In this document: positions 1,011-19,229 of the stretch, one piece after another
Numbering within the stretch: the stretch's first letter is position 1
Layout: the number at the start of each line of letters is the position of its first letter
DNA from: a virus
DNA length: 24,826 nucleotides
Virus record (IMG/VR): IMGVR_UViG_3300006874_000135
Span: 1-24,826 of that record
Strand: one strand, 5' to 3'
The notes under the pieces: generated by a model
Seen by the model: only the letters and a program-made list of their open reading frames with translations
What the model was told of the DNA's origin: nothing
The model's database searches: none
Translations under genes and position numbers: made by a program

Positions 1011-1039
1011 ATTTTAGGCAACTTTTAGGGATTGGTCAA
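1011..1039 (-). promoter_or_regulatory. Promoter of the recurrent late type, TTGACC-17-TAAAAT
   Basis: The -35 TTGACC (1034-1039), exactly 17 bp of spacer ending AAGTTGCC, and the -10 TAAAAT (1011-1016) fill the 36-bp gap before the fibre gene. A standard -10 to +1 distance puts the start site on the A of the ATG at 1004. The spacer end resembles the ATGTTTCC seen in the other members but is degenerate. Confidence 0.6.
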
Positions 1040-1040
1040 T

Positions 1041-1625
1041 TTATGAAACTTCTGTCCATGTATAAGCTGTCTCGATGGCATTGTAGTCAGACGCCCATTT
1101 TTGATCTATGTTTGTAACGGAACCGCCGGCCGCGGTAACGGTTGCCAAGTCGATGTATCTGTATCCGGTTGACTTATCGCTGGCAGACCATGTGTCTGTA
1201 AAGGCGCTGGTCTGCGTGACCACCGATGCGGACAGGAGAAAGTGGAAGTATTCGGATAAAGTATCAGACCCTATTAAAAAATCATCCCGGAGATCGTAGC
1301 TAATCTCCAGCCTGATCCCTATGTAGTTTGTGCCGTTGCTTAAGGTTTGCTCTGATTCTGCAATATAAAATTCCCCATTATCATACAAACCTTTTACAGA
1401 CCCAGCCGCCACGGTTACATTAAGTCCCACGGCAGTTTTGACCTGAAACGGGTGAGAAAAGTCTACTTCATCCGGAACCAAAATGTACTTGTCCGAATAC
1501 CTTTCAACATGGCCGTTGAACAATTCCAAATTGGAAAGCACCTCGTCCACCTTATTAAAGAAAGACGCGGGCACCTTGTTCGGCCAGTCGCCGGGCTTTA
1601 CTTTGTTTTTTAGAAAGTCGCCCAT
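1041..1625 (-). CDS. Putative distal tail/baseplate protein (194 aa)
   Basis: Not matched to a named family. The start is the ATG at 1625, preceded by AAAGG about 6 bases upstream; the frame extends further up but only through the preceding gene. The N-terminus is short and helical (SFFNKVDEVLSNLELFNGHV), followed by beta-rich, Ser/Thr-rich sequence with alternating hydrophobic residues, typical of structural tail proteins. It sits between another unknown tail gene and the fibre gene, downstream of the tape measure. It is therefore likely a virion component of the tail tip; this is inferred from position. It has no transmembrane segment and no visible enzyme motif. Confidence 0.65.
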   Translation of the reverse strand: MGDFLKNKVKPGDWPNKVPASFFNKVDEVLSNLELFNGHVERYSDKYILVPDEVDFSHPFQVKTAVGLNVTVAAGSVKGLYDNGEFYIAESEQTLSNGTNYIGIRLEISYDLRDDFLIGSDTLSEYFHFLLSASVVTQTSAFTDTWSASDKSTGYRYIDLATVTAAGGSVTNIDQKWASDYNAIETAYTWTEVS

Positions 1626-1633
1626 GATAACCT

Positions 1634-2293
1634 TTATGATGTTGGATAAGGACTTGTTACATCCCACGATCCAAGCTGCATGGATTCGTAATTGGCGGTG
1701 AAGGATCCCAACTGCATGCTTTCCAGCGACATGTTAAATGTCTCTCCAGGAAGATTGTATCTTGCAAGCTTCAACTGATTCTCGATGTCCTCTACTGCCT
1801 GCTCGCTGAGAGCCAAGAACTGCCATGTGTTTTTGACGTTTGTTCTTTTTAAAACATTTGAGCCGGCAACGATGACATCCGTTCCTGCGTTAGATGTCAT
1901 TTTTACCGCATTCTCTACTTTGATCGGGGTGCCGTAATCCTCTGTTACGCTTGCGGCGGTATTGACCGTGTTGGGCGATGATATTTCTACAGTCCAAGTT
2001 GCGACCAAATCTGGAGAATCAACCGCTCCCACACCGTCAAAGACTAGGGTGACGCCTTCGTAGATTTCCCAAGAATTAGACCCATCCCAAGTGATATTGA
2101 AATCATTATCGAACCCTTTTTCCCAGCCGCTTGTTATCGTTTCGGTTTTTGTCCACTTTGTTTTCCCATTTACGACTCCATTCGGCTTGTACAGCCCGGA
2201 CACGTCGTATGTAACGGCAGTGGTGTCATCGGTGACGGATCCCTCCACCAGCATATTTTGGGTAAGCACCCATGTTTTATCTCGCAGTGCCAT
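1634..2293 (-). CDS. Putative distal tail protein (219 aa)
   Basis: The ATG at 2293 overlaps the stop of the tape-measure gene (TAATG), so translation is probably coupled. The sequence is beta-rich with many Thr, Ser, Asn and Asp residues (VTYDVSGLYKPNG, ITWDGSNSWEIYEG), as in structural tail proteins. The C-terminus holds a short internal repeat: ESMQLGSF, then ESMQLGSW, separated by four residues. The place directly after the tape measure is where distal tail (Dit-like) or minor tail proteins are usually encoded; the exact role is not shown by the sequence. There is no signal peptide or enzymatic motif. Confidence 0.65.
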   Translation of the reverse strand: MALRDKTWVLTQNMLVEGSVTDDTTAVTYDVSGLYKPNGVVNGKTKWTKTETITSGWEKGFDNDFNITWDGSNSWEIYEGVTLVFDGVGAVDSPDLVATWTVEISSPNTVNTAASVTEDYGTPIKVENAVKMTSNAGTDVIVAGSNVLKRTNVKNTWQFLALSEQAVEDIENQLKLARYNLPGETFNMSLESMQLGSFTANYESMQLGSWDVTSPYPTS

Positions 2294-4296
2294 TATGCAA
2301 ACCCTCCAGCGTCTTTGATGGTTTTAGCAATCGAACGGGTGTTCTTTTCGTTCTGCACAATTGCTTTTGTGATGTTTTCTTTAAATGCCAGTTCCGCCTT
2401 CATGCCATTGATGCCCTTTAGCGCAACCGCCATGTTCTTGATGGCGTCGGCCTGTGCGATATCCATGTTTAGCTGCAAACTTAGATCCGGGAGATTTACA
2501 AACCGCAATTCTTTGTCCATCTTTAGGATTTGCCGTATAAGCATATCCACTTCTCTAGCGTCCAGCTTTGGGATCTCAAGGTCTTTAAGCGATGACAAAT
2601 CTGGCAAATCAATAAACGGTATATCACCCAAACCCTCGGCAATGCGCTTAACATTGTTTACAAATTTGGCCGCCTTTGTTCCGCTCAAATTGCCTACATC
2701 AATTTTGCGTATATCGTCCAGCCATGCAAGGTCAATGTCTGTTGCGTCAATTTGGGACAGCCCTTTTGCCAGCTTCTCCAAGTTGCTCACAAACTTTTTG
2801 ACGTCAAACCCGCTCGACTCTTTATTAAATTCGTTTACCTTTTGGCTGGTTTTGTCTACTGCATCATAAATGACTTCATAATGACGTTTCTGCACCTCAA
2901 GCGCATTTGTAAGTTCCTCTACAGTTGACTTTGTAGATTCAAGCTGGTTTTCAGTTTCTTCTAATTGTTGCTCTGCAGCGTCGGACTCTTTTTTGTTTCT
3001 CTCTGCTGCTTTCTTGGCCTTTTCGTCTAACGCCTTTTGTAGGTCGTCCTCCGCCGCCTTGATTGAAGCGTTCTTTTCTTTCTGTATATCAACCAACTGT
3101 TCACCAGTTACCTTGTAATAATCTTCAATGCCCCGCAGGTTGTTAATGGTTGCGGATTTTATCTCATCGAACCCATGATCCCATGTGCGGTAAAGGTCTT
3201 GAATGTCTTTGCGGGAAATGTTTGGATCTAATGCCGCGCTGATTTCCAACCCTATATTGTAAGACCAGTTTTCTACTACCGCCTTTGCCTTGTGCAGCTT
3301 CTCCCTTGCTACGTCCACAAGGTTTTGGAACATTGCAGAGATGTTTGACCCGAGCCACTCTCCGAACGAGCCAACAACCGCACCCACTTCCGCAAATTTT
3401 GCCTTTGTTTCTGCAGCCCATACTTTTATATCACGAATGGTTTTTGCTATGCCACCAGATTCTGCCCAGGATTCAAATTTCTGGGTAAGGTCTTTTACCT
3501 TCCCAGAGATTTTTCCCACAATATCGGCAAGCGGGGCTGAGTCCATTATCTGCGCACCGATTGCGATTGTCGCCTCGGATACTGCAGCCTTTAGGCCCTT
3601 CATTTGATTGGCCATTGAGCCTGCCGTCTTTTCCGCGTCCCCGTGCGCGTCGGTCGTGCCTTCCAAGATGATCTGGTATCTTGCCTGCGCCTTTGCTACT
3701 TCGCTGACCTCTTTAGTCGTTTTTGCCAACCCCATTTCCACGGCTTTTTGCTTGATGCTGTTTTCAGTCATCACTACGCCGTATTTTTTCATGACTTCGT
3801 TACTGCCCGTCATGGCAGATGCAAAGTCTTCAATCACTTTCTGGTCGCTGGCATTGTTAAAACTGGCGACGTCAATTGCCAGTTGCGTCATCTTCTTTGA
3901 GTAATCTGCTGCCTCACCGCGTGCCATTCCCATAGGCACAAACAGATCCTGCAACGACGCCATCATCCCTTTGATTTCTGTCTTGCTCCTGTTCGTCGCG
4001 CTTCCAAGATTTTCTGCAAATTGTTCTGCGTCTGCCGTGAATCCCCGGAACACGGTGTCAAATTTTGACTGCATTTCGGCAGCGTCTGATGCAGCTTTAA
4101 CCGCAATACCGCCCAAAGTTGCCAATGTCCCACCAACTGCGCCAACGCCGACTGCTACTTTCTTAAATACGCTTACAATCCCAGCGCCCATCTTTTTGAC
4201 GCCATCTCCAAACTTAGCCAGAGACGCTTGCGCCTCCCCGAGTCCGGCGGCAATCTTGTTTTTTGCGCTTACTACGATCGAAACTTCACGCGCCAT
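2293..4296 (-). CDS. Tail tape measure protein (667 aa)
   Basis: The tape measure sets siphophage tail length and is packed inside the tail tube. The N-terminus (MAREVSIVVSAKNKIAAGL, then SLAKFGDGVKKMG) is the usual tape-measure opening. A hydrophobic Gly/Ala-rich segment lies at about 45-70 (GVGAVGGTLATLGGIAV). A helical domain follows with KYGVVMTENSIKQKAVEMGL, a recognisable tape-measure stretch. Residues of about 400-470 form a charged coiled coil (AAEQQLEETENQLEST). I see no peptidase or lysozyme domain. The ATG at 4296 has AAAGGAG upstream and overlaps the preceding gene by 11 bp. At roughly 1.5 angstrom per residue, the length would fit a tail near 100 nm (family rule of thumb). Confidence 0.9.
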   Translation of the reverse strand: MAREVSIVVSAKNKIAAGLGEAQASLAKFGDGVKKMGAGIVSVFKKVAVGVGAVGGTLATLGGIAVKAASDAAEMQSKFDTVFRGFTADAEQFAENLGSATNRSKTEIKGMMASLQDLFVPMGMARGEAADYSKKMTQLAIDVASFNNASDQKVIEDFASAMTGSNEVMKKYGVVMTENSIKQKAVEMGLAKTTKEVSEVAKAQARYQIILEGTTDAHGDAEKTAGSMANQMKGLKAAVSEATIAIGAQIMDSAPLADIVGKISGKVKDLTQKFESWAESGGIAKTIRDIKVWAAETKAKFAEVGAVVGSFGEWLGSNISAMFQNLVDVAREKLHKAKAVVENWSYNIGLEISAALDPNISRKDIQDLYRTWDHGFDEIKSATINNLRGIEDYYKVTGEQLVDIQKEKNASIKAAEDDLQKALDEKAKKAAERNKKESDAAEQQLEETENQLESTKSTVEELTNALEVQKRHYEVIYDAVDKTSQKVNEFNKESSGFDVKKFVSNLEKLAKGLSQIDATDIDLAWLDDIRKIDVGNLSGTKAAKFVNNVKRIAEGLGDIPFIDLPDLSSLKDLEIPKLDAREVDMLIRQILKMDKELRFVNLPDLSLQLNMDIAQADAIKNMAVALKGINGMKAELAFKENITKAIVQNEKNTRSIAKTIKDAGGFA

Positions 4297-4984
4297 CTTT
4301 ATGCTCCTTTCGGATTTCCATTAGTGCAAGCCCCACGTCTCGCTCGGCCTGAATGTAATCGTTCGCCGGCTTTTTGTCGCCGTTCATTTCATTAAGCGCC
4401 TGTGCCTGTCGGGCAATGTAAGACAGGCTCACCCTGGCACGCCACACGTCTGGGGGAATGTTAGTCTGCGCCACCAACCGGGTGACCGCGCTTTCAAAGT
4501 CAGTCGGCTCTTCCGAAGCCACTTCTCCAGCCTCGGCTGGATTAAGCAATTCAAGCACCAGCTCAACCTCTTCCGCGGTGGCGTCAATTGTTCGCGCCAT
4601 TTTTAACGCTTCGTCTTTTGCGGCTTGCGTGTGGTACAGGGGCAGGAAGTAATCCAAATCCCGCGCGTGTTCATGCGCAATAATCAAACATGCAGCGTGG
4701 TATTCGGACGGAAGTTCAGCAATCGCCCATACATACCACTCCGCTGCCTGCAATGTCAGGGGAAAGAGTAGCCTACTCCCCAGCTTCCGCGGTGTCCCCG
4801 TCGCTGTCGCTTCCCGGATCGTCGGTGAGTCCGTCCGCTTGCAAAGCTCGTGGATCATCGCCAATTGGTTCGGCGTACAGCTTATGCCCTCCCTCGTCAG
4901 GGCATTGATCTCCGCCTCCGCCAGCGGATGCAACCATGTCCGCTCGGATAACTTCGGTTTGGCCGTTTCGGTTGACTCGTTCAA
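4286..4984 (-). CDS. Probable tail assembly protein (232 aa), TTG start
   Basis: The frame lies directly upstream of, and overlaps, the tape measure, the position of tail assembly chaperones. The product is soluble and helical (TWLHPLAEAEINALTREG near the N-terminus, HEHARDLDYFLPLYH in the middle) with an acidic region around 140-165. I do not recognise a family. The only start that keeps the full N-terminus is TTG at 4984; the next in-frame ATG is codon 43, inside apparently coherent sequence. An ATG in another frame at 4994 is coupled to the previous stop (TAATG) and opens a 73-codon frame inside this gene. Translation might therefore begin there and shift, but no slippery site is obvious. 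Confidence 0.65.
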   Translation of the reverse strand: MNESTETAKPKLSERTWLHPLAEAEINALTREGISCTPNQLAMIHELCKRTDSPTIREATATGTPRKLGSRLLFPLTLQAAEWYVWAIAELPSEYHAACLIIAHEHARDLDYFLPLYHTQAAKDEALKMARTIDATAEEVELVLELLNPAEAGEVASEEPTDFESAVTRLVAQTNIPPDVWRARVSLSYIARQAQALNEMNGDKKPANDYIQAERDVGLALMEIRKEHKDGA

Positions 4985-4993
4985 TGTAGCTCA

Positions 4994-5683
4994 TTAGCTG
5001 GCGGAGATGTTCTTGAAGACCATTGCGGATCCAGTGCCGTACTCGGTGTTGCTTTCGCTCTCACCCGGGCCGGTCAACAGGGTAAACCCAGTATCAGCCG
5101 CCCCACCTGGAGCAGCGGTAACTCCGACAAGATCGTGTGTCACTTCAAGACGGCCACCGTACACGTCAAGAGCCAACTCTTCGTTGGTGCTGTCCATTGC
5201 GCGGGATGTCTGTACGCTAAAGGATGCAGACGATCCGGTCAGGCGGGTATTGGTGTCGGTGCTGTATCCAATGGACTGGGCACCTTTCCCGCCGGTGAAT
5301 GTAAATCCGGGGTCGTACTTGGCAACTTCGGAATCGGCGGCAATGGTTTTCTGCCCGCTGATGGTCACCGTGGCCTGCTCGGTGTTGGACGTGCTGACGG
5401 AAATAGATGTGATGACATATCCGTTGATGACTTTGCCGCCACGGAAATCTTTAGAAGTCGCAGTGTCGTAGAAGTCAATGCTGGATGCCTTGCCGCAAAC
5501 GTAGTCAACGCTTACCGCTTGACCATATCCAGTGTCGTGGATGGTGCTTGCAACGACGTCTCCGTTGCTGTCCATTGCCTGCGCTTCAGAAGCCTGCAAC
5601 CCTGCGTTTGATGCGCTGTTGGCTGCAATACCAAGGGATGTGTCTGCGAATCCAAAATAATCAGTTGTGATGCCAAATGCCAT
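4994..5683 (-). CDS. Major tail tube protein candidate (229 aa)
   Basis: The length, composition and position (before the chaperone and tape measure) fit a siphophage major tail protein. The sequence is beta-rich with Ser, Thr, Gly and Asp (VINGYVITSISVSTSNTEQ, then ATVTISGQKTI, then LEVTHDLVGVTAAPGG), as expected for a tube-fold subunit. The start ATG at 5683 has CGGAG about 8 bases upstream. A promoter of the recurrent TTGACA/ATGTTTCC type lies at 5709-5737, suggesting this abundant protein gets its own transcript. The family assignment rests on context and fold-like composition, not on a specific motif. Confidence 0.7.
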   Translation of the reverse strand: MAFGITTDYFGFADTSLGIAANSASNAGLQASEAQAMDSNGDVVASTIHDTGYGQAVSVDYVCGKASSIDFYDTATSKDFRGGKVINGYVITSISVSTSNTEQATVTISGQKTIAADSEVAKYDPGFTFTGGKGAQSIGYSTDTNTRLTGSSASFSVQTSRAMDSTNEELALDVYGGRLEVTHDLVGVTAAPGGAADTGFTLLTGPGESESNTEYGTGSAMVFKNISAS

Positions 5684-5705
5684 ATAAATCTCCGGTGGTT
5701 ATGTT

Positions 5706-6338
5706 TTAAGTTTGGGAAACATCTGCGGTCTTGTCAATCCTTTGGCTTTCGTGGATTTGCTTGCCAATCTCTTCCCGCAGTCCCTGCAGCCCCTCGTCTT
5801 TTTCCGGCTCGGCCAAGCAGTCCAGCGCCGTGCCGGTCAAATCGATCCCGCGGTCAATTGCTTTGGACAGCCAAAACGTCCAGCTTTGTCGCTGTTGGGC
5901 ATGGCTGGGGTCGGATGTGTCCACGCCAAAGACTCGGATCTCGTCTACAGTATCGCCCATATCATGCTCGTATAATGCCAGCGCCAACATGAGCGATGGA
6001 CTGCCGAGAAAATAATTTGTGCCGAAATGCGTAAACAAATCAATGTGCGGGTAAAGGCGCTGATCCGGTACAACCGGGATGTGTTCGGTAACATATACTG
6101 GGCATCCTATTTTTGCCAGTTCTTGGAAGTGGTCGCCATTGTGCCCAGGGTTCCACCGCTTCAGATACTGCCACTTGTGAAGCTCAAAGAAGCGGTCAAA
6201 TCGCAAACCTTCGGAAGGGGCGTAATAGGCGTAAGCGTTATTCAAACTCCAGACTTCGCCTATGACGTGTCGCGCCATGTCGATTTTCCGCTCGTAAGCG
6301 GTCGGCCCCATTCCGAGAATGGTAATCTTGCGTGACAT
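5706..6338 (-). CDS. Rossmann-like protein of unknown function inside the tail module (210 aa)
   Basis: The N-terminus reads ITILGMGPTAYER, a beta strand plus a glycine-rich turn (GxGPT) like those of nucleotide or nucleotide-sugar binding Rossmann folds. WSLNNAYAYY and RFDRFFELHKWQYL follow. The later parts, FGTNYFLGSPSLMLALAL and DEIRVFGVDTSDPSHAQQ, resemble conserved features of DUF115/glycosyltransferase-like proteins, but I cannot confirm a family. It may modify a virion protein or the host surface; that is inference. The start ATG at 6338 has GGAAG nearby. It lies between the tail completion gene and the tail tube gene, an unusual place for an enzyme. Its last codons contain a promoter element. 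Confidence 0.75.
   Translation of the reverse strand: MSRKITILGMGPTAYERKIDMARHVIGEVWSLNNAYAYYAPSEGLRFDRFFELHKWQYLKRWNPGHNGDHFQELAKIGCPVYVTEHIPVVPDQRLYPHIDLFTHFGTNYFLGSPSLMLALALYEHDMGDTVDEIRVFGVDTSDPSHAQQRQSWTFWLSKAIDRGIDLTGTALDCLAEPEKDEGLQGLREEIGKQIHESQRIDKTADVSQT
5709..5737 (-). promoter_or_regulatory. Promoter of the recurrent late type before the tail tube gene
   Basis: TTGACA (5732-5737), a 17-bp spacer ending ATGTTTCC (5715-5722), then a weak -10 CAAACT (5709-5714). The element sits inside the last codons of the upstream gene, and the predicted start site (~5702) leaves a leader of about 19 nt carrying the CGGAG ribosome site of the tube gene. Confidence 0.5.
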
Positions 6339-6340
6339 GA

Positions 6341-6772: not shown

Positions 6773-6775
6773 CAC

Positions 6776-7573
6776 CTATCCTTTGTTATATCGCTCAACA
6801 ACTTGATCCATGCGTTTTGCCATAGATCCGAATATGTCTTTTTGCCTTGTTCGGCCTAAGGTGTCAAGGTCGGTTTGTTTGATTGTCCGGCCTGCGTATT
6901 TAACGCGATTATCCGCGCGCAATTCTATGTTCCCGCCTGATCCGCGTTTTATCAGCCCGCTTTGTTGCGCTCTATTTTGCAAGCTTCGGATATAATCAGG
7001 TACACCGCTTACTCGTCCATTTGTTTTTGCTTCTAAAGATTCAAGTGCTTTTACCCATCCGGCTTTTAGTGTAAAAACATGTGCTTGAACTTCCCGCTTG
7101 TATTGATTGAATGCGGCGGTTTTTACCACATACTTTTCCGGGTTTTTTAATCCATTATGAAATGACGTTGCGGGCGCTCTTGTTCTGCCCTTGCGGTCTC
7201 TGCTGTCTCTATGTATCCGACCAATAGCTTCTTTTGATGCAGATCTCAAATCTTGGTCAGATCGAATGGCCATCACTCCGCCGGATGTAAAGTTGACAAT
7301 ATACCCGTCGTCCAACGGCTCCATGGTTCCGCTTATTTTGTTTTTTGGAATAAAGATGTTGTTTAGGTCTTTTTCAATAGCAGCTTTACCTGCTTTCTTT
7401 TGACCGCCTAATGTCAGGCTGGGATTGCCACCTGTTTTTTTTATGACATCACGGCAAAAAAGCTTCATCTGCTCTAGCGCCACAAATTCTATGCTGACGT
7501 CAAATTCTCCGGCAAGTTCGCCTATGCGCTTGGCGACTTTTTTATCCCCCATGATGTCATAAGTGATAGACAT
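6776..7573 (-). CDS. Putative head-tail connector/minor tail protein (265 aa)
   Basis: The ATG at 7573 overlaps the preceding stop (TAATG). The protein is basic and helical, with many Lys and Arg residues (DSRDRKGRTRAPATSF, SLQNRAQQSGLIKRG). In lambda-like gene order this slot normally holds an HK97 gp10-like tail completion protein, but it is longer than usual and I see no decisive motif. By eye it uses more A/T-rich codons than its neighbours, which may mean a different history. A virion morphogenesis role is inferred from position only. Confidence 0.6.
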   Translation of the reverse strand: MSITYDIMGDKKVAKRIGELAGEFDVSIEFVALEQMKLFCRDVIKKTGGNPSLTLGGQKKAGKAAIEKDLNNIFIPKNKISGTMEPLDDGYIVNFTSGGVMAIRSDQDLRSASKEAIGRIHRDSRDRKGRTRAPATSFHNGLKNPEKYVVKTAAFNQYKREVQAHVFTLKAGWVKALESLEAKTNGRVSGVPDYIRSLQNRAQQSGLIKRGSGGNIELRADNRVKYAGRTIKQTDLDTLGRTRQKDIFGSMAKRMDQVVERYNKG

Positions 7574-7878
7574 TAGATCCGCTTTAGCGTGAGCCGAAAA
7601 GTATCCGTGCCGGCGTCCGTTTCTCGCTCCGCAACATAATAGTTGACGCCGTCCAGTTGAACCGTAGCGCGATCTGGCGGGATCGTTCCCTGCCAGTCTG
7701 ACAGGCTCGTCAGCACGTCTTTGCTTGTGGGGTCATAGTCCCCACGCTCGTCAATGATGATGTCTTCACGGACGTCTGATGCAGTGCAGGAGATGGTCAG
7801 CGAGCCATACACAAGCGAGCTGGGGAAGTCCCCAGCCAGCTCTTGTAAATCATTGCTCCAGTTGGCGAGGGGCATCAT
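7573..7878 (-). CDS. Head-tail joining protein candidate (101 aa)
   Basis: A 101-residue protein starting MMPLANWSNDLQELAG; the two adjacent ATGs at 7878 and 7875 are equally possible. The strands LTISCTASDVRED, ATVQLDGVNYYVAERET and FRLTLKRI give a small beta barrel with the terminal pattern seen in gpFII-like head-tail joining proteins. It overlaps the preceding gene by ATGA and the next by TAATG, so it is tightly coupled within the connector cluster. The assignment uses size, position and strand pattern; no unique signature is visible. Confidence 0.6.
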   Translation of the reverse strand: MMPLANWSNDLQELAGDFPSSLVYGSLTISCTASDVREDIIIDERGDYDPTSKDVLTSLSDWQGTIPPDRATVQLDGVNYYVAERETDAGTDTFRLTLKRI

Positions 7879-8087: not shown

Positions 8088-8100
8088 TGGTTACTCCTTT

Positions 8101-8140
8101 TTTAAAGAGAAAGCCCCACCCGCCCGGAGACGAGTGGGGC
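8101..8140 (-). terminator. Rho-independent terminator after the capsid gene
   Basis: On the minus-strand RNA, GCCCCAC (8134-8140) pairs with GTGGGGC (8113-8119). A G-U pair and two further pairs extend the stem to 10 bp with an 8-nt loop. UUUCUCUUU follows. It lies just beyond the capsid stop and would separate the capsid unit from the connector genes. Confidence 0.85.
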
Positions 8141-9624: not shown

Positions 9625-10457
9625 AGTTCGGTTCCCATTTCGCGGGCTTCGGTTAGTGCTTGGTTGATATCTCCGATCTCGTCGATTAGATTTTCAGACA
9701 GTGCATATTTTCCAAAAAGTGTTTGGCCTTCCATTACATCTTTGGAAACATTTCCACGATTGTCAATTACCCAACTTTTGAACTCATCCGCGAGCATATC
9801 GACTTCGTCCTGTAACAGCTCGCGTTGCTCATCGGTCAATGGAATGCCTGGGAACATCATTCCCTTGTATTTGCCGCTGGCGATCATTTCGCGTTCCAGC
9901 CCTTCGCGCTCCATTGCCTTGGTCACGTCGATCCAAGTCATGAGCGTGCCAATGCATCCCACCTGACTGGATGCGGTGGCAAAGATACTGTCCGCTGCGC
10001 TGGCCAGATAATATCCCGCAGACGCCACCAGGTTGTCGGTAAATGAGACGACGGGCTTCTCAATGCTTTTGATATATTCGGCAGTTTCTTCCAGCCCGGT
10101 TACCATTCCACCCGGCGAATTAATCACCATCAAGATCGATGTGATGTCTGGGTCGGCTTCGGCTTTTGCAAATGCTTTCCGAATATCAACGTAATCCACG
10201 CCGCCCATGCAGGCTTTTTCGATTTCGTCCAGCCGGTATCCCAGTGCGCCTTCAATTTCAATCACCGCCACGCCATCGATCACATCGTATTCGTCCGGCG
10301 TTTTGTATTCTACTTTTACACCCATGACCTCGATGGTCTTATCCATTGGGATGCCTTGCAGGTGACGCTGGAACACGTCGTGGAACGCTTGGTATGCGCT
10401 GGCGGTAATTGCCCACGGCTTGGCGTACAACTCTCTGCTTACTCGTTCAAATCTCAT
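9621..10457 (-). CDS. Head maturation protease, S49/SppA family (278 aa)
   Basis: A ClpP-fold serine protease of the lambda gpC type that trims the procapsid. Landmarks are ILMVINSPGGMVTG (110-121, oxyanion region), VASAGYYLASAAD with the nucleophile Ser146, and SGKYKGMM with Lys198, matching the Ser-Lys dyad spacing of bacterial SppA. The later IPLTDEQRELLQDEVD is also a family feature. I chose the ATG at 10457, because the frame upstream lies within the portal gene and the protein start MRFERVSRELYAKPWAI matches the family N-terminus. It overlaps portal by 11 bp and scaffold by 4 bp. Confidence 0.92.
   Translation of the reverse strand: MRFERVSRELYAKPWAITASAYQAFHDVFQRHLQGIPMDKTIEVMGVKVEYKTPDEYDVIDGVAVIEIEGALGYRLDEIEKACMGGVDYVDIRKAFAKAEADPDITSILMVINSPGGMVTGLEETAEYIKSIEKPVVSFTDNLVASAGYYLASAADSIFATASSQVGCIGTLMTWIDVTKAMEREGLEREMIASGKYKGMMFPGIPLTDEQRELLQDEVDMLADEFKSWVIDNRGNVSKDVMEGQTLFGKYALSENLIDEIGDINQALTEAREMGTEL
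9738..9766 (-). promoter_or_regulatory. Promoter of the recurrent late type inside the head protease gene
   Basis: TTGACA (9761-9766), a 17-bp spacer ending ATGTTTCC (9744-9751), and -10 AAAGAT (9738-9743). It is embedded in protease codons and would drive the scaffold and capsid genes, whose products are needed in large amounts. Confidence 0.5.
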
Positions 10458-12326: not shown

Positions 12327-12334
12327 ATAGATCA

Positions 12335-12363
12335 ATAGTTGGAAACATTTACAATATTGTCAA
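12335..12363 (-). promoter_or_regulatory. Promoter of the recurrent late type starting the head operon
   Basis: TTGACA (12358-12363), a 17-bp spacer ending ATGTTTCC (12341-12348), -10 AACTAT (12335-12340). It lies just after a strong terminator and starts the W-portal-protease-scaffold-capsid unit. The predicted +1 is about 12328, two bases before the ATG of the W-like gene. Confidence 0.65.
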
Positions 12364-12367
12364 AAGA

Positions 12368-12400
12368 TAAAAAGCCCCGCAGAGTCTTGCCCTGCGGGGC
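12368..12400 (-). terminator. Rho-independent terminator between terminase and head operon
   Basis: GCCCCGCAG and CTGCGGGGC form a perfect 9-bp stem (12392-12400 with 12374-12382) around a 9-nt loop, followed on the minus strand by UUUUU. It ends transcription coming through the terminase genes or from the short unit at 12439. Confidence 0.92.
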
Positions 12401-12439
12401 GTACCGAAAGGAAGGAGGAGAGACGGAAAACCTTTCGAC
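12369..12439 (-). ncRNA. Candidate ~70-nt small RNA with an anti-Shine-Dalgarno loop
   Basis: The gap between the terminase stop and the head promoter contains TTGACA (12469-12474), 17 bp and a weak TAGGTT, predicting a 5' end near 12439; an upstream TATAAT is an alternative. The RNA would fold into CGAAAGG/CCTTTCG (12431-12437 with 12405-12411) and then the terminator hairpin with U5. The 19-nt loop of the first hairpin carries GUCUCUCCUCCUU, complementary to AAGGAG-type ribosome sites. No ORF fits. Expression is unproven. Confidence 0.35.
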
Positions 12440-12475
12440 CCCTTAAACCTAAATGACTTTTACAATTTTGTCAAA

Positions 12476-14221
12476 TTATATGATCCCGTCCCAGCGGGCT
12501 AAGACCGCCTGCATGCATTCGCAATCCCACAGGTGATCCTGACCATGGCCGGGCGCAATCCATTCCCCGTCAACTTTCTTTGTGCTGGTGACCTGCTTGA
12601 TGTATTGGTTTTTATGACGCGGATCCGGCCAGGTGTCGGGTATGTGCCAGTCGTTGCCCTGCTCGATGCTGTCCATGAGCATGGTTCGGAACGGATCGGT
12701 CGCCCAGCTTAGTTCCAGAAACGGGGATGCGCCACCACCACGACCTTCCAGGGCGTCGCGGATGTGGTAGGTGATGTTGGAAACCTTTTGACTGTCTGAC
12801 CCTTTCATGGCCATGACCGCAGACTCTTTCACATCCGGGTCTGCGTAGTGGGCGCAGTAATCCGCAACTTCGGATTGGCGCAGGGCGTAGCCGATGTCGA
12901 TGCCAACTTGCCGCGGTGAATACTCCGCCAGAATAGTGTCCAGATCTTGAAAGGTTGCGGCGGTTCCATGCTGCACCAACGCGCTGTGATATTCGCCGTT
13001 TTTATTGATTGCCCAGTTCCGGCATAACCAAAACAAATGATATTTCTGCACGTCGACAGTGGCAAAGATTCCAGACTGCCAGCCTTCGGGAACCCAGATG
13101 TTTCCGATCTCGTACTCTTCCGCGCAGTGATCCAGCTTGTCGCTGGTCGCCACTTGCTCCTCCTCCCGGTGCGCTTCGGCCCAATACTCGGCCATGTAAG
13201 TTCGGATGGTGTTGCGATTGCGTTCCGCCCTTTTCGCGGTTTGGTTTAGCCGGTGTTTGGCTGAAAGAAATTTCTTTGCCAGCTCTCCAAACGAGCAGTC
13301 CGTAAACGGGATCATGGGCGCGACAACTTTATACCCGCGTCGGATGCCTTCACCACGGGCGTCCCATCTGCCCTTGCGGGTGTATGCCATGCGCTCGGAC
13401 TCTTCAATCCTCGTCCCGTTTGGAGTCTCGTACCATGCTTGTCGTGCTACTGCTTCCAAATCCCATTGGTCGTCCTGCTTACATTCTTTCGGCCACTTGA
13501 TCCCGCCAAGCGTCCACTCAAACTCTCCGCCAGCTGGATCCGGCATGACCCACACCCGCTTGTCCGATTCTTCGTATAGCTTAATAATGGGCGATTGGTT
13601 CGGGTCGCCTTTTCTGCTGGGGTCAATGGATCCTCCGAAGCAAATGTGGGAAAACGGATAAGCAGCAACCCGCCGGCGTGCCATGTCCACCCCGAACTCC
13701 GGGAAAAGATCCACTTCGTCCAGATACAGGCGGCACCACCCATCGGACTTGATTGCCGTGTCTGAAGTTGCCCAGGTGGAACGGAAGTCCATTGCCGGAA
13801 ACTGGATCTCGGTGTTCAAAACTTTTGCCCGCTTGTATTGTCGTTCTATCTCTTTTGACAAAGCCATGCCACGACACACGCGCCGGTCGTGGAAACCTTT
13901 TGCAATCTCCATTTTGCCGGTCACGTACATGGTAGGCCCGGGATTGCGGGCGATGGTGTACCGCAGATCGGTGAGGATTAGATTTTCGCTGTATCCAGCG
14001 CGGCTGGATTTAAGGATTGCCACTTCCCGGATGCTGTTATCCTGCAATGCTTCCAGTGGCTCTTTCCAGAACGGCATAAGGTCTGGGTCAAACGCTCCAC
14101 GGTAGGGCGTGTCGTAGTTGGCAGCTCGGGAGTAATCCACGTTCTGCTCCGCCCACTTCCAGGATGGCAATGGGTCTTGTTTGCGGAATGCAATTTTGCA
14201 CTGTTTGTCTGGGTCAATCAT
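12476..14221 (-). CDS. Terminase large subunit, lambda GpA family (581 aa)
   Basis: The ATP-driven packaging motor and DNA nuclease of cos-type phages. The N-terminal ATPase has a variant Walker A (KSSRAGYSE, 71-79) and Walker B (LYLDEVDLFPE, from 165). The C-terminal nuclease shows FATVDVQ with Asp390, VGIDIGY with Asp442 and QDHLWDCE with Asp566, the usual acidic metal ligands. WKWAEQNVDYSRAANYDTP near the start is typical of GpA proteins. It overlaps the small terminase by 8 bp. The family suggests cohesive-end packaging. Confidence 0.95.
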   Translation of the reverse strand: MIDPDKQCKIAFRKQDPLPSWKWAEQNVDYSRAANYDTPYRGAFDPDLMPFWKEPLEALQDNSIREVAILKSSRAGYSENLILTDLRYTIARNPGPTMYVTGKMEIAKGFHDRRVCRGMALSKEIERQYKRAKVLNTEIQFPAMDFRSTWATSDTAIKSDGWCRLYLDEVDLFPEFGVDMARRRVAAYPFSHICFGGSIDPSRKGDPNQSPIIKLYEESDKRVWVMPDPAGGEFEWTLGGIKWPKECKQDDQWDLEAVARQAWYETPNGTRIEESERMAYTRKGRWDARGEGIRRGYKVVAPMIPFTDCSFGELAKKFLSAKHRLNQTAKRAERNRNTIRTYMAEYWAEAHREEEQVATSDKLDHCAEEYEIGNIWVPEGWQSGIFATVDVQKYHLFWLCRNWAINKNGEYHSALVQHGTAATFQDLDTILAEYSPRQVGIDIGYALRQSEVADYCAHYADPDVKESAVMAMKGSDSQKVSNITYHIRDALEGRGGGASPFLELSWATDPFRTMLMDSIEQGNDWHIPDTWPDPRHKNQYIKQVTSTKKVDGEWIAPGHGQDHLWDCECMQAVLARWDGII

Positions 14222-14633
14222 GTACCATCTCGCAAAGTCGGTCTGCTAGTTGATTGATAATGTCCGCCTGCTCCGGGTGCTTTGCCGTCTCATGCGCACG
14301 CCAGTCTTCGACCGCTTTTCTGGCTTTCATCCACCGCGCCATAAACCGCGCCTCTTCTTCCTTGCGGTTCACCAGCTCCCCGCGCATCTCTTCAATCTGA
14401 ATGTCCAGCTTGTCAATCTCGCGCAGCAATTTCTCATCACGCAAAGACCCGTCCCCAGTCAACCCGTTCTTTTTCGTTTCTTTAACATACTTTCTCCACT
14501 GCTCAACATTGTAGCCGCTCTTTGTTTTGCGCGGTGCGTCGGGTCGCTTGGCATACGTGCCAAATTGTTGCCGGGACATCCCCAGCATACCGGCAATCTC
14601 GTCTTGTGTGCTTGCGTAATTTGATCCGCTCAT
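14214..14633 (-). CDS. Terminase small subunit, Nu1-like (139 aa)
   Basis: A DNA-recognition subunit predicted by position immediately before GpA and by an N-terminal helix-turn-helix: TQDEIAGMLGMSRQQFGTYAKR (within 9-30), which reads as a MerR/Nu1-like HTH followed by a wing (APRKTKSGYNVEQWRKYV). The middle (65-100) is a charged coiled coil, LRDEKLLREIDKLDIQIEEM, likely for oligomerisation, and the C-terminus probably binds the large subunit. The ATG at 14633 has CAGGAG about 9 bases upstream. Confidence 0.8.
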   Translation of the reverse strand: MSGSNYASTQDEIAGMLGMSRQQFGTYAKRPDAPRKTKSGYNVEQWRKYVKETKKNGLTGDGSLRDEKLLREIDKLDIQIEEMRGELVNRKEEEARFMARWMKARKAVEDWRAHETAKHPEQADIINQLADRLCEMVHD

Positions 14634-14682
14634 TTTATTTTCTCCTGATCTTTAATTGTGTCGAATGTAAAGTAAGCTTTTT
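14634..14682. other. Short leader upstream of small terminase; possible cos region
   Basis: Between the terminator and the small terminase gene lie GAATGTAAAG and AGTAAGC (14663-14677). Their inverted copies, CTTTACATTC (14786-14795) and GCTTACT (14762-14768), are about 90-115 bp away. In GpA-type phages cos is normally just upstream of this gene. I see no direct proof of a nick site. Confidence 0.25.
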
Positions 14683-14713
14683 AAAAAAAACCACTCAAAA
14701 TTCAAAAGTGGTT
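14683..14713 (-). terminator. Rho-independent terminator ending the replication unit
   Basis: AACCACT and AGTGGTT form a 7-bp stem with an 11-nt A/T-rich loop, followed by eight U on the minus-strand RNA. The stem overlaps the stop codon of the zinc-protein gene. Confidence 0.9.
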
Positions 14714-14843
14714 AAACCCGCGATAGACATCGGTCGTAAAAGTACCTACAGCCCCCCGCGTGCTTACTGTATAGTCTACCACACGCTTTACATTCAAATG
14801 CCTTGTAGGCACCTTCTCGTGCGTCTGTGGCGATTCTATGCAT
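14712..14843 (-). CDS. Small zinc-binding protein (43 aa)
   Basis: A short gene whose ATG at 14843 lies 8 bp inside the preceding gene and whose stop merges with the terminator stem. The product begins MHRIATDAREGAYKAFECK and carries Cys18-x2-Cys21, Cys32 and Cys39 (ECKACGRL and GGCRYFYDRCL), a plausible four-cysteine zinc site. It ends the replication unit just before the terminase genes. The overlap, the cysteine pattern and the exact fit between neighbour and terminator support it as real. I know no family; DNA or RNA binding is a guess. Confidence 0.65.
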   Translation of the reverse strand: MHRIATDAREGAYKAFECKACGRLYSKHAGGCRYFYDRCLSRV

Positions 14844-15123
14844 CGGACTCATCCACCAGCTCGTCGTCTACCGCTTCGTCGTCATCCAACCAGCCACGGA
14901 ACGCGCAATAGTCAGAATATACATAGTAATCTGGATCGAGCATCGTTCGGCTAATCATTGGGATCTCGCCTATTCGCACACAGAACTCAATCCACGCCTT
15001 GTGGATGTCTCGACTCGCTGCTCGTCTCATGGCTTCGTTGTGTCCATCCTCAAACCAATCGCGAATCTCTTTCTCTGTCATTGGGCGACCTTTCGGCCGG
15101 CGGTACTTCTTGCGGACTTTCAT
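14836..15123 (-). CDS. Hypothetical phage protein (95 aa), basic N-terminus and acidic tail
   Basis: Not recognised. It starts at the ATG at 15123, overlapping the resolvase-like gene by ATGA. The first 15 residues are strongly basic (MKVRKKYRRPKGRP), a helical section follows (EKEIRDWFEDGHNEAMRRAA), and the last 20 residues are very acidic (DDDEAVDDELVDESDA). The charge split might suit a nucleic-acid-binding or DNA-mimic protein, which is speculation. It lies between a nuclease gene and a zinc-protein gene at the end of the replication unit. Confidence 0.7.
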   Translation of the reverse strand: MKVRKKYRRPKGRPMTEKEIRDWFEDGHNEAMRRAASRDIHKAWIEFCVRIGEIPMISRTMLDPDYYVYSDYCAFRGWLDDDEAVDDELVDESDA

Positions 15124-15446
15124 GCGTCATTTCCTTTTGAGTGCCAAACCACTGACTTTTGTGATTGTCTAAGTATTAACCAAGATGATGTTCCATCAAT
15201 TTTGCAAGCAAGCATCCAAGGCATACGACCCGCCTGGCGTATGGCTTGTGCTCTCCATTCGCGTATGTTCATGCTCACCGCATTCTTGACTTCGATTGAC
15301 CAGACCTGCCCGCTTGGATCAACCGCCAAGAAGTCCTCGACCGCAGTGCCAGAGTTCAGCTCGCGCACCTCCCAGTCTCGATCCCGCAGAAGGTTGCCAA
15401 ATTCCAGTTGACCCCGCCGACCTTTTGATCTTGAATTGATGGTCAT
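15120..15446 (-). CDS. PD-(D/E)XK nuclease, Holliday-junction-resolvase-like (108 aa)
   Basis: A small nuclease with RSKGRRGQLEFGNLL (Glu15), VEDFLAVDPSG with Asp38, and WSIEVKNA with Glu52 and Lys54, the E/D-ExK pattern of archaeal Hjc-like and phage resolvases. Phages use such enzymes to resolve branched replication intermediates before packaging, consistent with its position just before terminase. The ATG at 15446 has no strong Shine-Dalgarno site. It lies immediately downstream of the iteron region. VRR-type or another branch-cutting nuclease is an alternative. Confidence 0.75.
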   Translation of the reverse strand: MTINSRSKGRRGQLEFGNLLRDRDWEVRELNSGTAVEDFLAVDPSGQVWSIEVKNAVSMNIREWRAQAIRQAGRMPWMLACKIDGTSSWLILRQSQKSVVWHSKGNDA

Positions 15447-15472
15447 GAGTACATCCGTGTTTGATGTGCAAG

Positions 15473-15761
15473 GTAGGTTTCGGTAGGTTTTTTTCCCTCT
15501 ATTCTATTTCTGTTCATACTGCTTCCTCACGCGTAGGGGTCAAATAAAACCTACCCAAACCTACCCTATTTCTATAAGTGTCTGATTTGTGGCGGTTTAA
15601 GGTGGTAGGTTTATAGGTAGGTTTCCCCCAAAAAAGGTAGGTTTGGGTAGGTTTGGAGCCTAAAAAACCGACTGGATTTGACTTTGTATAGGTCATAACT
15701 ATCAGAAGGGTAAGGATTCGCCTATATCAGTAGGTTTGCTGGTAGGTTTCTCGGTAGGTTT
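15473..15761. repeat. Iteron array, candidate replication origin
   Basis: Eleven copies of GTAGGTTT or its complement AAACCTAC. Plus-strand GTAGGTTT starts at 15473, 15483, 15605, 15617, 15637, 15647, 15730, 15742 and 15754; the reverse form is at 15547 and 15557. Two pairs form a perfect 19-bp inverted repeat (15547-15565 with 15636-15654). Three copies are inside the last codons of the primase-helicase gene and encode its Lys-Pro-Thr repeats. The 255-bp stretch 15447-15701 has no convincing gene and includes A/T-rich sequence, as in an iteron origin. A regulator-binding array is the main alternative. Confidence 0.65.
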
Positions 15762-18521
15762 CTCCGACTGGAAATCGGCCGGATTTTGACCCACATTGTC
15801 ATGCACAATCCACTGGGTTCCCTTGCTGGATTCGTGTGCTTTTGTGATCCGCATTCCGTTGCAAATCCTGTCCATACGGTTGAGAAAAAAGCGCCCCAAT
15901 CGGCGTCCGTTCAGATCCCTCAACCCAACCGCGTCTGCGATGCTGTCGTGGATGGTTTCGTCCTCTTCATAGACGGTAGTATGGTCGCGGTTGTAACGCT
16001 GGTTTGTGACGTTCTCGACCACGTGAATGACCTCCCTGGCTGTGAAAGATTGATGCCGGAACTTCTGATGCAGTGCGTGCAGAAGCTCTGCCCATTCTTC
16101 CTGCTCTGGATCTGTCGCCTGTCCGGCTTTCATCACATCCATCGGGTCGCATACTACGTCCGGGTAGTGATCAGACAGCCACGCAATCGGCTGGCGCACC
16201 ACGTCATCCCACTCCTCAAAGCTGGCAAGTCGGCCTTTAGCGTGTGGCCTTCCTGCTGTTATCCATGCCCGTATAATGGTCATAGCCGCTGCCAGTATAT
16301 TGAACCTACGTTGCATACAGAACGTCTCTGGGTCGAAATCGAACTCCCGTGCGTAGGGCTCATCCATGTTCGGGTTGATACGGCAACGGAAAATCCGGCG
16401 TGGCATATCGCCTGCCAGTTGCAGGTTGTTGCCTGTAAACAGCCATAAAGCCATGTTTGGGATCGTAACGCTTGTGCTGGAGCCCAGAATACGGTCTGTA
16501 TAGCTTGCAGACGTAAGCAGTCCAGCCATTGATGCCGAGTTGAACCGCCCGAGGATGTTATCCCAAACCACGCATTCCGCACCCGACACCAGAAGCGCCA
16601 TGACCCGCTTTCTGATTTCCTCGTCGTCTTTGCCCGAAACGTGCGGTTTTACGTCCGCTTTCTTTCCGGTTGCGATGGCGTGCAAAGACTGCGCCAGTAA
16701 CGTCTTGCCCGAGCCTTGAATCGGAGCGTCAAAGCCAAAGCCTGGGCACGTGTCAATCACCGGGCGCATGACCGCAGACAGAACTGCTGCAATCAATACA
16801 GTTCGATCATGCACCCCCTCAAATGGAAAGTATCGGAAAGGCTCCATAATCACCTGCAACGCCTTTTCTGCGTCCTCAAGCGCAGGATTTGACGGCACCG
16901 GGGTGATTTCGTCCTCATTGAAGTTAAGCAACAGCCCGGTGGACGCGTCAAACCCGGGTTTATCAATGATCTCGCCCGTGGTCAACATGATGGGCATACT
17001 CACCACCCGTTTAAGTTCGGGCAGTTGGCGTTGCCGTCCAATGCTGGAAATCACCTTGGCCACCTGCAACGGCGGATCCTTCGGCACGTCAATCAACGCA
17101 TCTGTCCCGCTTTTTGTGGCCTGCCGTTTGTAGTATTGGCAGTGTTCACCCATCCACCACACCAGCGAGTAGTCTTGCAGGCGCGTGAATCCGTGGTCGT
17201 CCACCTTTACGATGTCGTTCCCGAACTCATATACATCATTCGCCTTGCGCATGGCATCCAAGGTCTTTTTGATGACCTCGGCAGTGCGCCCATCTGCAAG
17301 CTCAATCATTTCCGGGGCCTTTACCAGTCGATACGTGCGCCCTCCGTGTGCGAAAGAGTAGAGACGCGGTGATCCATTCAACAGGTACAGCTTGCCAACC
17401 GGCTGCCCGCCCCTGTAATCGGGTTCTATCGGATCCAGCGTGTCCGCCCCGTGCCACTTTTCTGGATCCATAAGCAAATCCAGAATCTTGACCGGCTTAA
17501 ATTCGCCCTCTACGTCCACCATCACCGTGAAGTCGCCACCCAATGTGCCACCTTCACAAGCCCGCTCTACCGCTTGAACGCATTCCTCGATCTTTTCTGC
17601 CGTAGCACCAGGCCCTGCAATCTCCCGCCCTCGCTGTTTGCAGTAGTCGGCACGGATCGCGCTTGCCTGCTCTTCTGCCAAGTCCAGAGCCGTCTTTACG
17701 ATCCGGTCATGATCTTTAGACTCCTCTGCGCTTAATTCCGGCAAAACCACAGCCAGATCCGCAACACCGCCCTCAACCACCACAGGATGCCCCCTGTCTT
17801 GATACAGTGGCTCGTGGCACACTGCACCTGCAGCAAAATCAAAGCGGTTTGTCTGCCACACAGATGCGTCTACGAGGGTTCGTTTTAGCTTGGATCCGGC
17901 CTTGGACACTTCAACCCAACCCTGACCCGAAAGCCACAAACGCTTGACAAGTGCCTCGCCCGCTCTGGGGATCTCGATTGCGTTCTTTACAAAGAAGTAA
18001 ATACGCTGTCCAGACAGGCCGGAGATGTGTTCGCCGGTGACCCTGTTGCGGATGTAGGAAGACGACGACGGGATCGACACATATCCAACCCCAGCAAGCC
18101 CGGGCGCTGCCTTGCATAACTTTGCCCAAAGTTCTTGATGCGACAAAGGCGCTTGCCCTGCCGGTGGGTCGTAATCAATGAAGAAAACGCCCGGCCCATT
18201 GTCGAAATACATATCCGCTTTAGTGCGGGTCTGCACGTCCATAGGGTATCCTGCCTTTTTGTGGGCAGGCTTCGACATCATTCTGGCGTTACCCAGGCGC
18301 GTCAACCCATAGCAAAGCGCTTGGTTCGGGTTTAGGTTTTCGATCAGATCCGCAAAGCCCTTCAAGCTCTCAACCTGCGCAGTTTCGCAACTGCCCTCCG
18401 ACATATTCCCGCCGGATTCCTTTACAGCCTTGCCCTCGACCAGTTTCCATACCTTGGTCAGGTGCTTCGGCTTTTCGCTCGTGATTATGGTTAGTTTTGG
18501 GTTCATTATTTTAACACACAT
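15702..18521 (-). CDS. Replicative primase-helicase (939 aa)
   Basis: The N-terminal part resembles an archaeo-eukaryotic primase: VFFIDYDPP with Asp116/Asp118, SIPSSSSYI (150-157), GQRIYFFV and TLVDASVW with Asp218 give motifs I to III. The C-terminal ATPase has FDAPIQGSGKT (Walker A 603-607), CVVWDNI (Walker B, about 650-656), WLFTGNN (sensor 1) and MPRRIF (arginine finger about 708), fitting a phage SF3-like replicative helicase. The C-terminus is EKPTEKPTSKPTDIG followed by ESLPF, like an SSB tip. The start could be 18521 or the MNPK start at 18506; neither has a clear ribosome site. It overlaps the preceding nuclease gene by 11 bp if 18521 is used. Confidence 0.85.
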   Translation of the reverse strand: MCVKIMNPKLTIITSEKPKHLTKVWKLVEGKAVKESGGNMSEGSCETAQVESLKGFADLIENLNPNQALCYGLTRLGNARMMSKPAHKKAGYPMDVQTRTKADMYFDNGPGVFFIDYDPPAGQAPLSHQELWAKLCKAAPGLAGVGYVSIPSSSSYIRNRVTGEHISGLSGQRIYFFVKNAIEIPRAGEALVKRLWLSGQGWVEVSKAGSKLKRTLVDASVWQTNRFDFAAGAVCHEPLYQDRGHPVVVEGGVADLAVVLPELSAEESKDHDRIVKTALDLAEEQASAIRADYCKQRGREIAGPGATAEKIEECVQAVERACEGGTLGGDFTVMVDVEGEFKPVKILDLLMDPEKWHGADTLDPIEPDYRGGQPVGKLYLLNGSPRLYSFAHGGRTYRLVKAPEMIELADGRTAEVIKKTLDAMRKANDVYEFGNDIVKVDDHGFTRLQDYSLVWWMGEHCQYYKRQATKSGTDALIDVPKDPPLQVAKVISSIGRQRQLPELKRVVSMPIMLTTGEIIDKPGFDASTGLLLNFNEDEITPVPSNPALEDAEKALQVIMEPFRYFPFEGVHDRTVLIAAVLSAVMRPVIDTCPGFGFDAPIQGSGKTLLAQSLHAIATGKKADVKPHVSGKDDEEIRKRVMALLVSGAECVVWDNILGRFNSASMAGLLTSASYTDRILGSSTSVTIPNMALWLFTGNNLQLAGDMPRRIFRCRINPNMDEPYAREFDFDPETFCMQRRFNILAAAMTIIRAWITAGRPHAKGRLASFEEWDDVVRQPIAWLSDHYPDVVCDPMDVMKAGQATDPEQEEWAELLHALHQKFRHQSFTAREVIHVVENVTNQRYNRDHTTVYEEDETIHDSIADAVGLRDLNGRRLGRFFLNRMDRICNGMRITKAHESSKGTQWIVHDNVGQNPADFQSEKPTEKPTSKPTDIGESLPF

Positions 18522-19068
18522 ATATTGGTGAGTTTAAGGGAGAATTTTCATAAGCGATTCTGGTGGCATCTTCTAACTGATCCTCACAGCTTGCAACATT
18601 GATGTTGTCAATCATCCATTCAGAAGAGCAAGTTGCTTCTGGATAAGATATATAATGAAAACACTTCCCGCCTGCAGTTTCGTATATGTGCGGGATAACG
18701 TACAAATCAGGTTCGCCTGGTGCGGTTTTTAATGTGCCAAATGTTGTGAACCCGGGTTTGCCAAACCTTATGATGCAAGAGTGACCCGTTTCGACCGATA
18801 ACTGTTTGATTTTTTCGATTTCCTTAGCTGTTGGGAAAGTTGGCTTTACCTCAACCAAATACCCTGCATTTTCACGACCATCTATGTCAGGAAGCGGGAA
18901 CCAGAAGTCTGGCAAATAACCGCTACCCCCAAAGCTAATAGCATATCTCCTTGGCTCGTATTCAAAATGCAACTTAAGCCTTGTCCAATAAATGGCCCAT
19001 GCAGCCTCAAGCTTTGATCTATATGTAACACCATTAACGGTCGTAGGTATTGATCTTTTTGTTATCAT
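18511..19068 (-). CDS. PD-(D/E)XK endonuclease (185 aa)
   Basis: Core nuclease signature: YRSKLEAAWAIYWTRL with Glu21, GGSGYLPDFWFPLPD with Asp54, and YLVEVKPTFPT with Glu73-x-Lys75, then a helix AKEIEKIKQLS. This arrangement is widespread in phages and mobile DNA (VSR/TnsA-like fold). It lies directly before the primase-helicase and overlaps its first codons, so it may process DNA ends or recombination intermediates. By eye it is more A/T-rich than the flanking replication genes, suggesting later acquisition. The ATG at 19068 follows TTTGGAG and overlaps the small upstream ORF by ATGA. Confidence 0.75.
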   Translation of the reverse strand: MITKRSIPTTVNGVTYRSKLEAAWAIYWTRLKLHFEYEPRRYAISFGGSGYLPDFWFPLPDIDGRENAGYLVEVKPTFPTAKEIEKIKQLSVETGHSCIIRFGKPGFTTFGTLKTAPGEPDLYVIPHIYETAGGKCFHYISYPEATCSSEWMIDNINVASCEDQLEDATRIAYENSPLNSPIYVC

Positions 19069-19178
19069 TTCATTTCTCCAAAAAGCGCCCCCAGATATAC
19101 GGTGACGGTGCGGGACTCCCCATGAAGGGAAAGCGCGTCGTATATCTGGGGGCTAAGGTGTTCATGTATTTTGTCCAT
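19065..19178 (-). CDS. Possible 37-aa ORF spanning a long hairpin
   Basis: A 37-codon frame from ATG 19178 to a stop overlapping the next ATG (ATGA). The product begins MDKIHEHLSPQIYDALSLHG and ends YLGALFGEMK. It looks peptide-like and would couple to the nuclease gene. The same DNA contains a 15-bp perfect inverted repeat and a T-run, so the stretch may instead be an RNA structure. A possible AAGGA lies 12-13 bases upstream, near the predicted transcript 5' end. Either reading is plausible. Confidence 0.4.
   Translation of the reverse strand: MDKIHEHLSPQIYDALSLHGESRTVTVYLGALFGEMK
19080..19153 (-). terminator. Long hairpin followed by U-run (terminator or attenuator)
   Basis: GCCCCCAGATATACG (19087-19101) and its perfect complement (19139-19153) form a 15-bp stem around 37 nt that contains a second small hairpin (UUCCC/GGGGA). 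On the minus-strand RNA it is followed by GCUUUUU. It lies between promoter 19201-19229 and the nuclease gene, so it may terminate or attenuate transcription entering the replication unit. Confidence 0.6.
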
Positions 19179-19200
19179 AGGACCGTCACGTCCTTCTAAC

Positions 19201-19229
19201 ATTATTGGAAACATCCAAAATTGTGTCAA
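19201..19229 (-). promoter_or_regulatory. Promoter of the recurrent type before the primase unit
   Basis: TTGACA (19224-19229), a 17-bp spacer ending ATGTTTCC (19207-19214), and -10 AATAAT (19201-19206), the best sigma-70-like match in the window. The predicted start is near 19194. The first bases, AGGAC-GUGACG-GUCCU, can form a 5-bp hairpin covering the AGGA of the following small ORF. Confidence 0.75.

Follow-up and report, generated by a model that had tools for sequence, protein, structure and literature searches.

Why should one phage genome repeat, ahead of several of its gene blocks, a promoter-like motif in which an eight-base block lies against the -10 hexamer, and what might read that block? 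We addressed this question in the IMG/VR record IMGVR_UViG_3300006874_000135, the whole of which forms the window analysed here (24.8 kb). The coding strand of the window is its minus strand, which is also the strand that carries all of the sites. The preliminary description, made from the sequence alone, had reported five sites with TTGACA or TTGACC, a 17-bp spacer ending in the conserved block and a -10-like hexamer. All five were found where it had placed them, with the same hexamers and spacing; four are exact matches and the fifth is a variant (Table 1).

Table 1. Promoter-like sites and intrinsic terminators in the window
Feature	Position	Strand	Sequence or structure	Remark
Site 1	19201..19229	-	TTGACA-CAATTTTGGATGTTTCC-AATAAT	exact match
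Site 2	12335..12363	-	TTGACA-ATATTGTAAATGTTTCC-AACTAT	exact match
Site 3	9738..9766	-	TTGACA-ATCGTGGAAATGTTTCC-AAAGAT	exact match
Site 4	5709..5737	-	TTGACA-AGACCGCAGATGTTTCC-CAAACT	exact match
Site 5 (variant)	1011..1039	-	TTGACC-AATCCCTAAAAGTTGCC-TAAAAT	block here AAGTTGCC, N9 gap
Degenerate copy	12446..12474	-	TTGACAAAATTGTAAAAGTCATTTAGGTT	directly past terminase stop, upstream of terminator
Promoter-like site without block	24193..24221	-	TTGACC-GTGGGGGCGGTTTGTGG-CAATGT	small-gene (early-type) region
Intrinsic terminator	12374..12400	-	11-bp stem, T tail	between terminase gene and site 2
Intrinsic terminator	8113..8140	-	12-bp stem	past major head protein gene

Recurrence, form and placement of the motif

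The motif TTGACA-N9-ATGTTTCC matched four minus-strand sites at 14/14 fixed positions each, where 0.0001 matches are expected per strand. Allowing up to three mismatches gave 13 matches (4.5 expected), a count reached in 0/100 shuffles. The minus strand of the window contains the block itself four times, exactly 9 bp past TTGACA in every case; the plus strand contains it once. The post-hoc choice of motif was countered by searching for any pair of a 6-mer and an 8-mer separated by a gap of 0-20, with 150 dinucleotide-Markov and 150 synonymous-codon shuffles as null sets. The real coding strand had one four-copy pair and none of the 300 shuffles had any. Three-copy pairs appeared in 0/150 Markov and 4/150 synonymous-codon shuffles. 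In an unbiased search for repeated 6+6 pairs, the TTGACA/ATGTTTCC motif ranked first.

Seven coding-strand sites and no opposite-strand site had the form TTGACM-N17-(.A...T), and every other spacing yielded 0-3. Besides the five sites, the seven comprise the degenerate copy and the site without the block. This coding-strand peak is, as a sequence pattern, a sigma-70 signature, though the -10s are poor. The -35 agrees with TTGACA at 6/6 positions in four sites and at 5/6 in the other, and the distance to the -10 is 17 bp at 5/5 sites. The -10s of sites 1 to 5 agree with TATAAT at 5, 3, 3, 3 and 5 of 6 positions, A2 and T6 being present at all five, and the weak hexamers (AACTAT, AAAGAT and CAAACT) match at 3/6 each. 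The -12 T is missing at the four exact-block sites, and the variant-block site 5 has a good TAAAAT. A consensus sigma-70 scan picks up only 2/5 sites. In line with the view that the sites are chance matches to the promoter consensus, a generic promoter scan of the window found 14 promoters against 14.7 expected from shuffles, no excess; the motif-specific statistics (0.0001 expected, 0/300 shuffles, the 17-bp peak) contradict this view, which we regard as refuted and hold to have next to no probability.

The sites are placed as had been claimed, with the names of two downstream genes open to qualification. Site 1 lies just past the stop of a zinc-ribbon ORF (19231-19482) and upstream of a tiny ORF that is followed by the nuclease and primase genes. 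Site 2 falls between the terminase gene with its intrinsic terminator and a small head gene followed by portal, with an ATG (window 12326) 8 nt past the -10. As the preliminary description had also noted, two sites are in coding sequence: site 3 within the gene for an S49-type head maturation protease, with scaffold-like and major head protein genes downstream, and site 4 at the 3' end of ORF 5706-6338. The gene downstream of site 4 (4994-5683) has its start codon 25 nt past the -10, with a GGAG ribosome-binding sequence. It is tail-tube-like by position, gave no PHROG or Pfam match and owes its name to gene order only. The same is true of the name of the fibre-like gene (3-1004) downstream of site 5, which is complete in the sister contig described below and has no Pfam match there; its ATG (window 1004) lies 6 nt past the -10. 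With start codons 8 and 6 nt past the -10 at sites 2 and 5, leaderless transcripts are possible, and the small head gene (here and in the relative L007) and the fibre-like gene could be expressed from such transcripts. Because of the terminator past the major head protein gene, the tail genes downstream need read-through or another promoter, for example site 4.

The nine free bases between TTGACA and the block, as well as the flanks, are unrelated among the five sites. This variation between copies makes recent duplication unlikely and favours selected contacts over copied DNA. That the promoters were recently copied around the genome, so that the block is common by descent and functionless, would fit the degenerate copy near site 2, which retains part of the site 2 spacer; given the unrelated gaps and flanks, and one site that is constrained by protein coding, we consider this very improbable. 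The degenerate copy scores 14.1 in a matrix scan in which the five real sites score at least 33.6 and the best score in 21 shuffled sequences is 15.6, and it is probably non-functional. The block-free site indicates that the block is not on every promoter of the phage. Downstream of this site, which is a candidate unregulated early promoter, comes a small gene whose ribosome-binding site is good.

The phage, its relatives and their promoters

Proteins recognised in the phage include large terminase, portal, head maturation protease, major head protein, tape measure and primase, together with helicase, a PD-(D/E)XK protein, a RusA-like resolvase and DUF3127. A sister contig, IMGVR_UViG_3300034374_005529, is 100% identical to the window over 14.7 kb and then continues for 5.8 kb, in which a matrix scan revealed no clear additional site. 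Its positions 20115-20496 match the opposite end of the window (24445-24826) with 89% identity over 382 bp, and this match between far ends suggests that the window and the sister contig probably cover most of a genome of ~30 kb. The change from 100% (14.7 kb) to 89% at window 24445-24826 points to mosaicism or to differences between strains. This stretch is the probable genome junction and has a phosphoesterase-like gene nearby. We also note that AAACCTACC is repeated about ten times, in both direct and inverted orientation, at 15470-15760 (minus strand), across the 3' end of the primase gene and the gap that follows; these repeats are iteron-like and make a candidate replication origin. L007 also has repeats just past its primase gene, at 7496-7652, but these are different (AAATGCAAATGCAAACCTAG..TTGCAC).

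L007 (IMGVR_UViG_3300003272_000027) is the nearest relative, with 67% (terminase) and 76% (portal) identity to the window phage. Over 19.5 kb it is identical to a stretch of contig DIYK01000067.1 from Verrucomicrobia bacterium UBA6056, and this contig also has genes of the sulfatase, MacB/FtsX and Omp85 types as well as an integrase; the L007-type relative is thus a prophage of a Verrucomicrobiota host. As its nearest relative is such a prophage, the window phage probably infects a related, Verrucomicrobia-type host, an assignment drawn from this one relative. The UBA6056 prophage (G003:C92, ~44 kb to the contig end at 74371) contains an integrase, a Cro/CI-type repressor and a candidate operator, TGCATGCATTCTA. 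Searches of 388 Verrucomicrobiota genomes for portal homologues returned none that was close except this known prophage.

At the head-gene position, L007 carries TTGACACCTTTTCGCTTTATGCCTACATT (TTGACA-N17-TACATT) with an ATG 7 nt downstream (L007:11885), and in its protease gene, at the place aligned to site 3, TTGACAGGCGGGGAGAGGTTGAGGACAAT (TTGACA-N17-GACAAT); both are without ATGTTTCC. The promoter positions in this nearest relative, together with the motif statistics, the 17-bp peak and the strand bias, sustain the earlier argument that spacing and placement are not due to chance. A second promoter of the UBA6056 prophage, near the far end, reads TTGACAGTTTCGAAATTAAATGCCTATAAT and has 18-bp spacing. 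The head-gene and far-end promoters of L007/UBA6056 share a perfect palindrome, ATGCCT-N8-AGGCAT, over the -10 (ATGCCTACATTGTAAGGCAT, ATGCCTATAATATAAGGCAT), and L114, whose primase is 40% identical, has TTGACTAAATTATAGGCATTGCCTAAAATATAGGCAT directly past its own terminase gene (palindrome promoters at L007:11849-11877, G003:C92:73728-73757 and L114:9286-9321). A third palindrome in the protease gene of the relative (C92:65714) has two mismatches, which is about chance level, and was rejected.

Promoters of the UBA6056 prophage thus resemble those of the window in having TTGACA-N17/18 and an element against the -10, one of them at the head-gene position, but their element is palindromic, lies over the -10 and has another sequence. 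Only site 5 (TTGCCTAAAAT) looks similar, being akin to the promoters of L007 and L114 in which TGCC directly precedes TAnnAT. Three phages therefore have, at the terminase/head boundary, a promoter in which an additional element adjoins the -10, and the element of the window phage differs in sequence from that of the other two. The more distant terminase relatives L037, L039 and L040 have no promoter directly past the terminase gene, and L038 has a promoter-like TTGACA..TATGCCATAAT ~200 nt downstream of it.

The -10-palindrome promoter is itself widespread in IMG/VR. The pattern TTGAC-N17-TGCC[TAnAnT]n(1-3)AGGCA was found in 42 stretches (L117-L158), ~28 of them distinct, and half of the distinct ones had exactly 17 bp. 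A control with the right arm scrambled gave 3 stretches, a count that may be somewhat lowered by the CpG in the control arm. In several of these promoters the palindrome includes the start codon, and in two or three cases the gene that follows looks Cro-like.

Candidate readers of the block

In 388 Verrucomicrobiota genomes the exact motif of the window phage turned up 10 times and never twice in one genome, which is chance level. A regulon of a Verrucomicrobiota host was rejected on this ground, the host of the phage being itself deduced. In IMG/VR the motif was found in 25 stretches, two from the sister contig and 23 single matches on other contigs that we judged, from a rough estimate of the collection size, to be at chance level. 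Among IMG/VR contigs other than the window, the sister contig alone has the exact motif repeated, and the ATGTTTCC block looks phage-specific. With regard to the promoters of the host, no usable consensus emerged from 700 kb of the UBA6056 genome, and canonical TTGACA-N17/18-TANNNT showed no genome-wide enrichment in it.

That the block is uniform speaks for a specific reader; that it is missing from both the relative and the genomes of the host phylum speaks for a reader encoded by the phage. Moreover, the block is uniform within the phage and different between phages, as would be expected of a phage regulator and its own sites. We infer transcription starts at the five sites and binding of a phage protein to the block, and we are fairly confident that the sites are promoters of the host sigma-70 type under the common control of a DNA-binding protein from the phage. 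Sigma would read the near-consensus -35 TTGACA and the poor -10 (A2, T6) 17 bp apart, the phage-encoded protein would read ATGTTTCC at about -20 to -13, and this reader would place the transcription units for replication, head, tail and fibre under joint control.

Known readers were looked for among the encoded proteins. Sigma-70 region 2 (PF04542) had no match in the window, the sister contig or the relative, with matches in 11/14 control genomes, and promoters of a phage-encoded sigma factor were accordingly discarded. A T7-like RNA polymerase (PF00940) gave no match, but the control genomes gave none either. Homologues of MotA, Mor, C, cII and Q were absent from the proteins scanned. The only small DNA-binding candidate in the window is a ribbon-helix-helix-like protein (23517-23684), picked out by eye and with a weak DUF6290 hit. 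Dyad symmetry in the block was no better than chance (best P ~0.12), which gives no support to a dimer or a palindromic operator of CI/Cro type; site 3 alone carries TGGAAATGTTTCCA.

The preliminary description had proposed that the block may bind a phage or host activator. A specific protein is the best inference, a regulon of Verrucomicrobiota hosts finds no support, and a role in activation stands hardly firmer than one in repression. Activation is slightly favoured by the exact-block sites being without the -12 T and the variant-block site having the good TAAAAT (n=5). Repression at the spacer, which we consider nearly as likely, is suggested by the position of the block in the spacer and by the operator-like palindromes at promoters of the relative; the block, which lies over the end of the spacer and adjoins the -10, also occupies the classic place for a repressor operator. 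Our more specific proposal, of an undescribed phage regulator that reads ATGTTTCC between -35 and -10, inside the polymerase footprint, and activates a weak -10, is put forward tentatively.

Could the host RNA polymerase itself read the block through sigma region 2.4/3.0, in the manner of an extended -10, and so rescue the weak -10s with no regulator involved? The block adjoins the -10, the weak -10s fall at exact-block sites, and CC precedes the -10 in relatives too (TGCC in L007, L114 and the promoter-like site of L038). The canonical extended -10 (TGn) sigma-70 promoter shares with our sites a -35, a 17-bp spacing and an element directly upstream of the -10. The sites differ from it in having eight bases that are not TGn, no TG at -15/-14 and a -12 T that is missing in 4/5 cases, and we know of no extended -10 contact that spans eight conserved positions to -20. 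In addition, the block is absent at the homologous promoters of the nearest relative, the exact motif is not enriched in the 388 host-phylum genomes, and the same phage has a promoter-like site without the block. Direct reading by the polymerase is consequently unlikely in our view.

Dispersed operators of a phage repressor, of the stoperator kind known from mycobacteriophage L5, would be another explanation. Operators and stoperators of L5 and TipsytheTRex are asymmetric and oriented with transcription, some overlap promoters, and they occupy short intergenic or coding places; binding of a monomeric repressor to an asymmetric site has been documented (PMC9283540). Our five sites are likewise asymmetric and all oriented with transcription, some in coding sequence, and the nearest relative is an integrated prophage with an integrase and a Cro/CI-type repressor. 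However, L5 has contiguous 13-mers, >20 per genome, that are not tied to a -10, whereas the window has only five bipartite sites and not ~20 or more promoter-independent ones. Stoperators can do without promoter hexamers, yet each of the five sites has a -35 and, exactly 17 bp on, a -10-like hexamer. Furthermore, neither an integrase nor a CI-type repressor was recognised in the window or the sister-contig extension, where several small proteins remain without assignment. Considering both sides, we find stoperators an improbable account of the sites.

Known systems and significance for Verrucomicrobiota phages

Host sigma-70 promoters that are co-regulated by a phage activator include the middle promoters of T4 (MotA), those of Mu (Mor/C) and those of lambda (cII/Q). 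The window phage resembles these systems in that a short specific element is repeated at several promoters of the host polymerase, as is typical of activator-dependent promoters; co-regulation is presumed here. It differs from them in its near-consensus -35 and in the place of the element, at about -20 to -13, which neither replaces nor precedes the -35. To the best of our knowledge, no regulatory element has been known for phages of Verrucomicrobiota, and our literature search for such elements found none.

With a motif as clean as this one, both the timing and the regulator become directly accessible. Set beside the UBA6056 prophage, the window phage seems to have kept a promoter in synteny while its block has changed in sequence, a tractable case of regulator-site co-evolution. 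If a phage regulator does read ATGTTTCC in the proposed manner, the five sites would represent a class of promoters that have an extra element where the spacer meets the -10 and that drive the programme for replication and the virion, and regulator and sites would change together between related phages of Verrucomicrobiota-type hosts. The extra signal of eight letters that the sites share is most likely bound by one of the phage's own control proteins, and would let the phage switch several gene blocks together.
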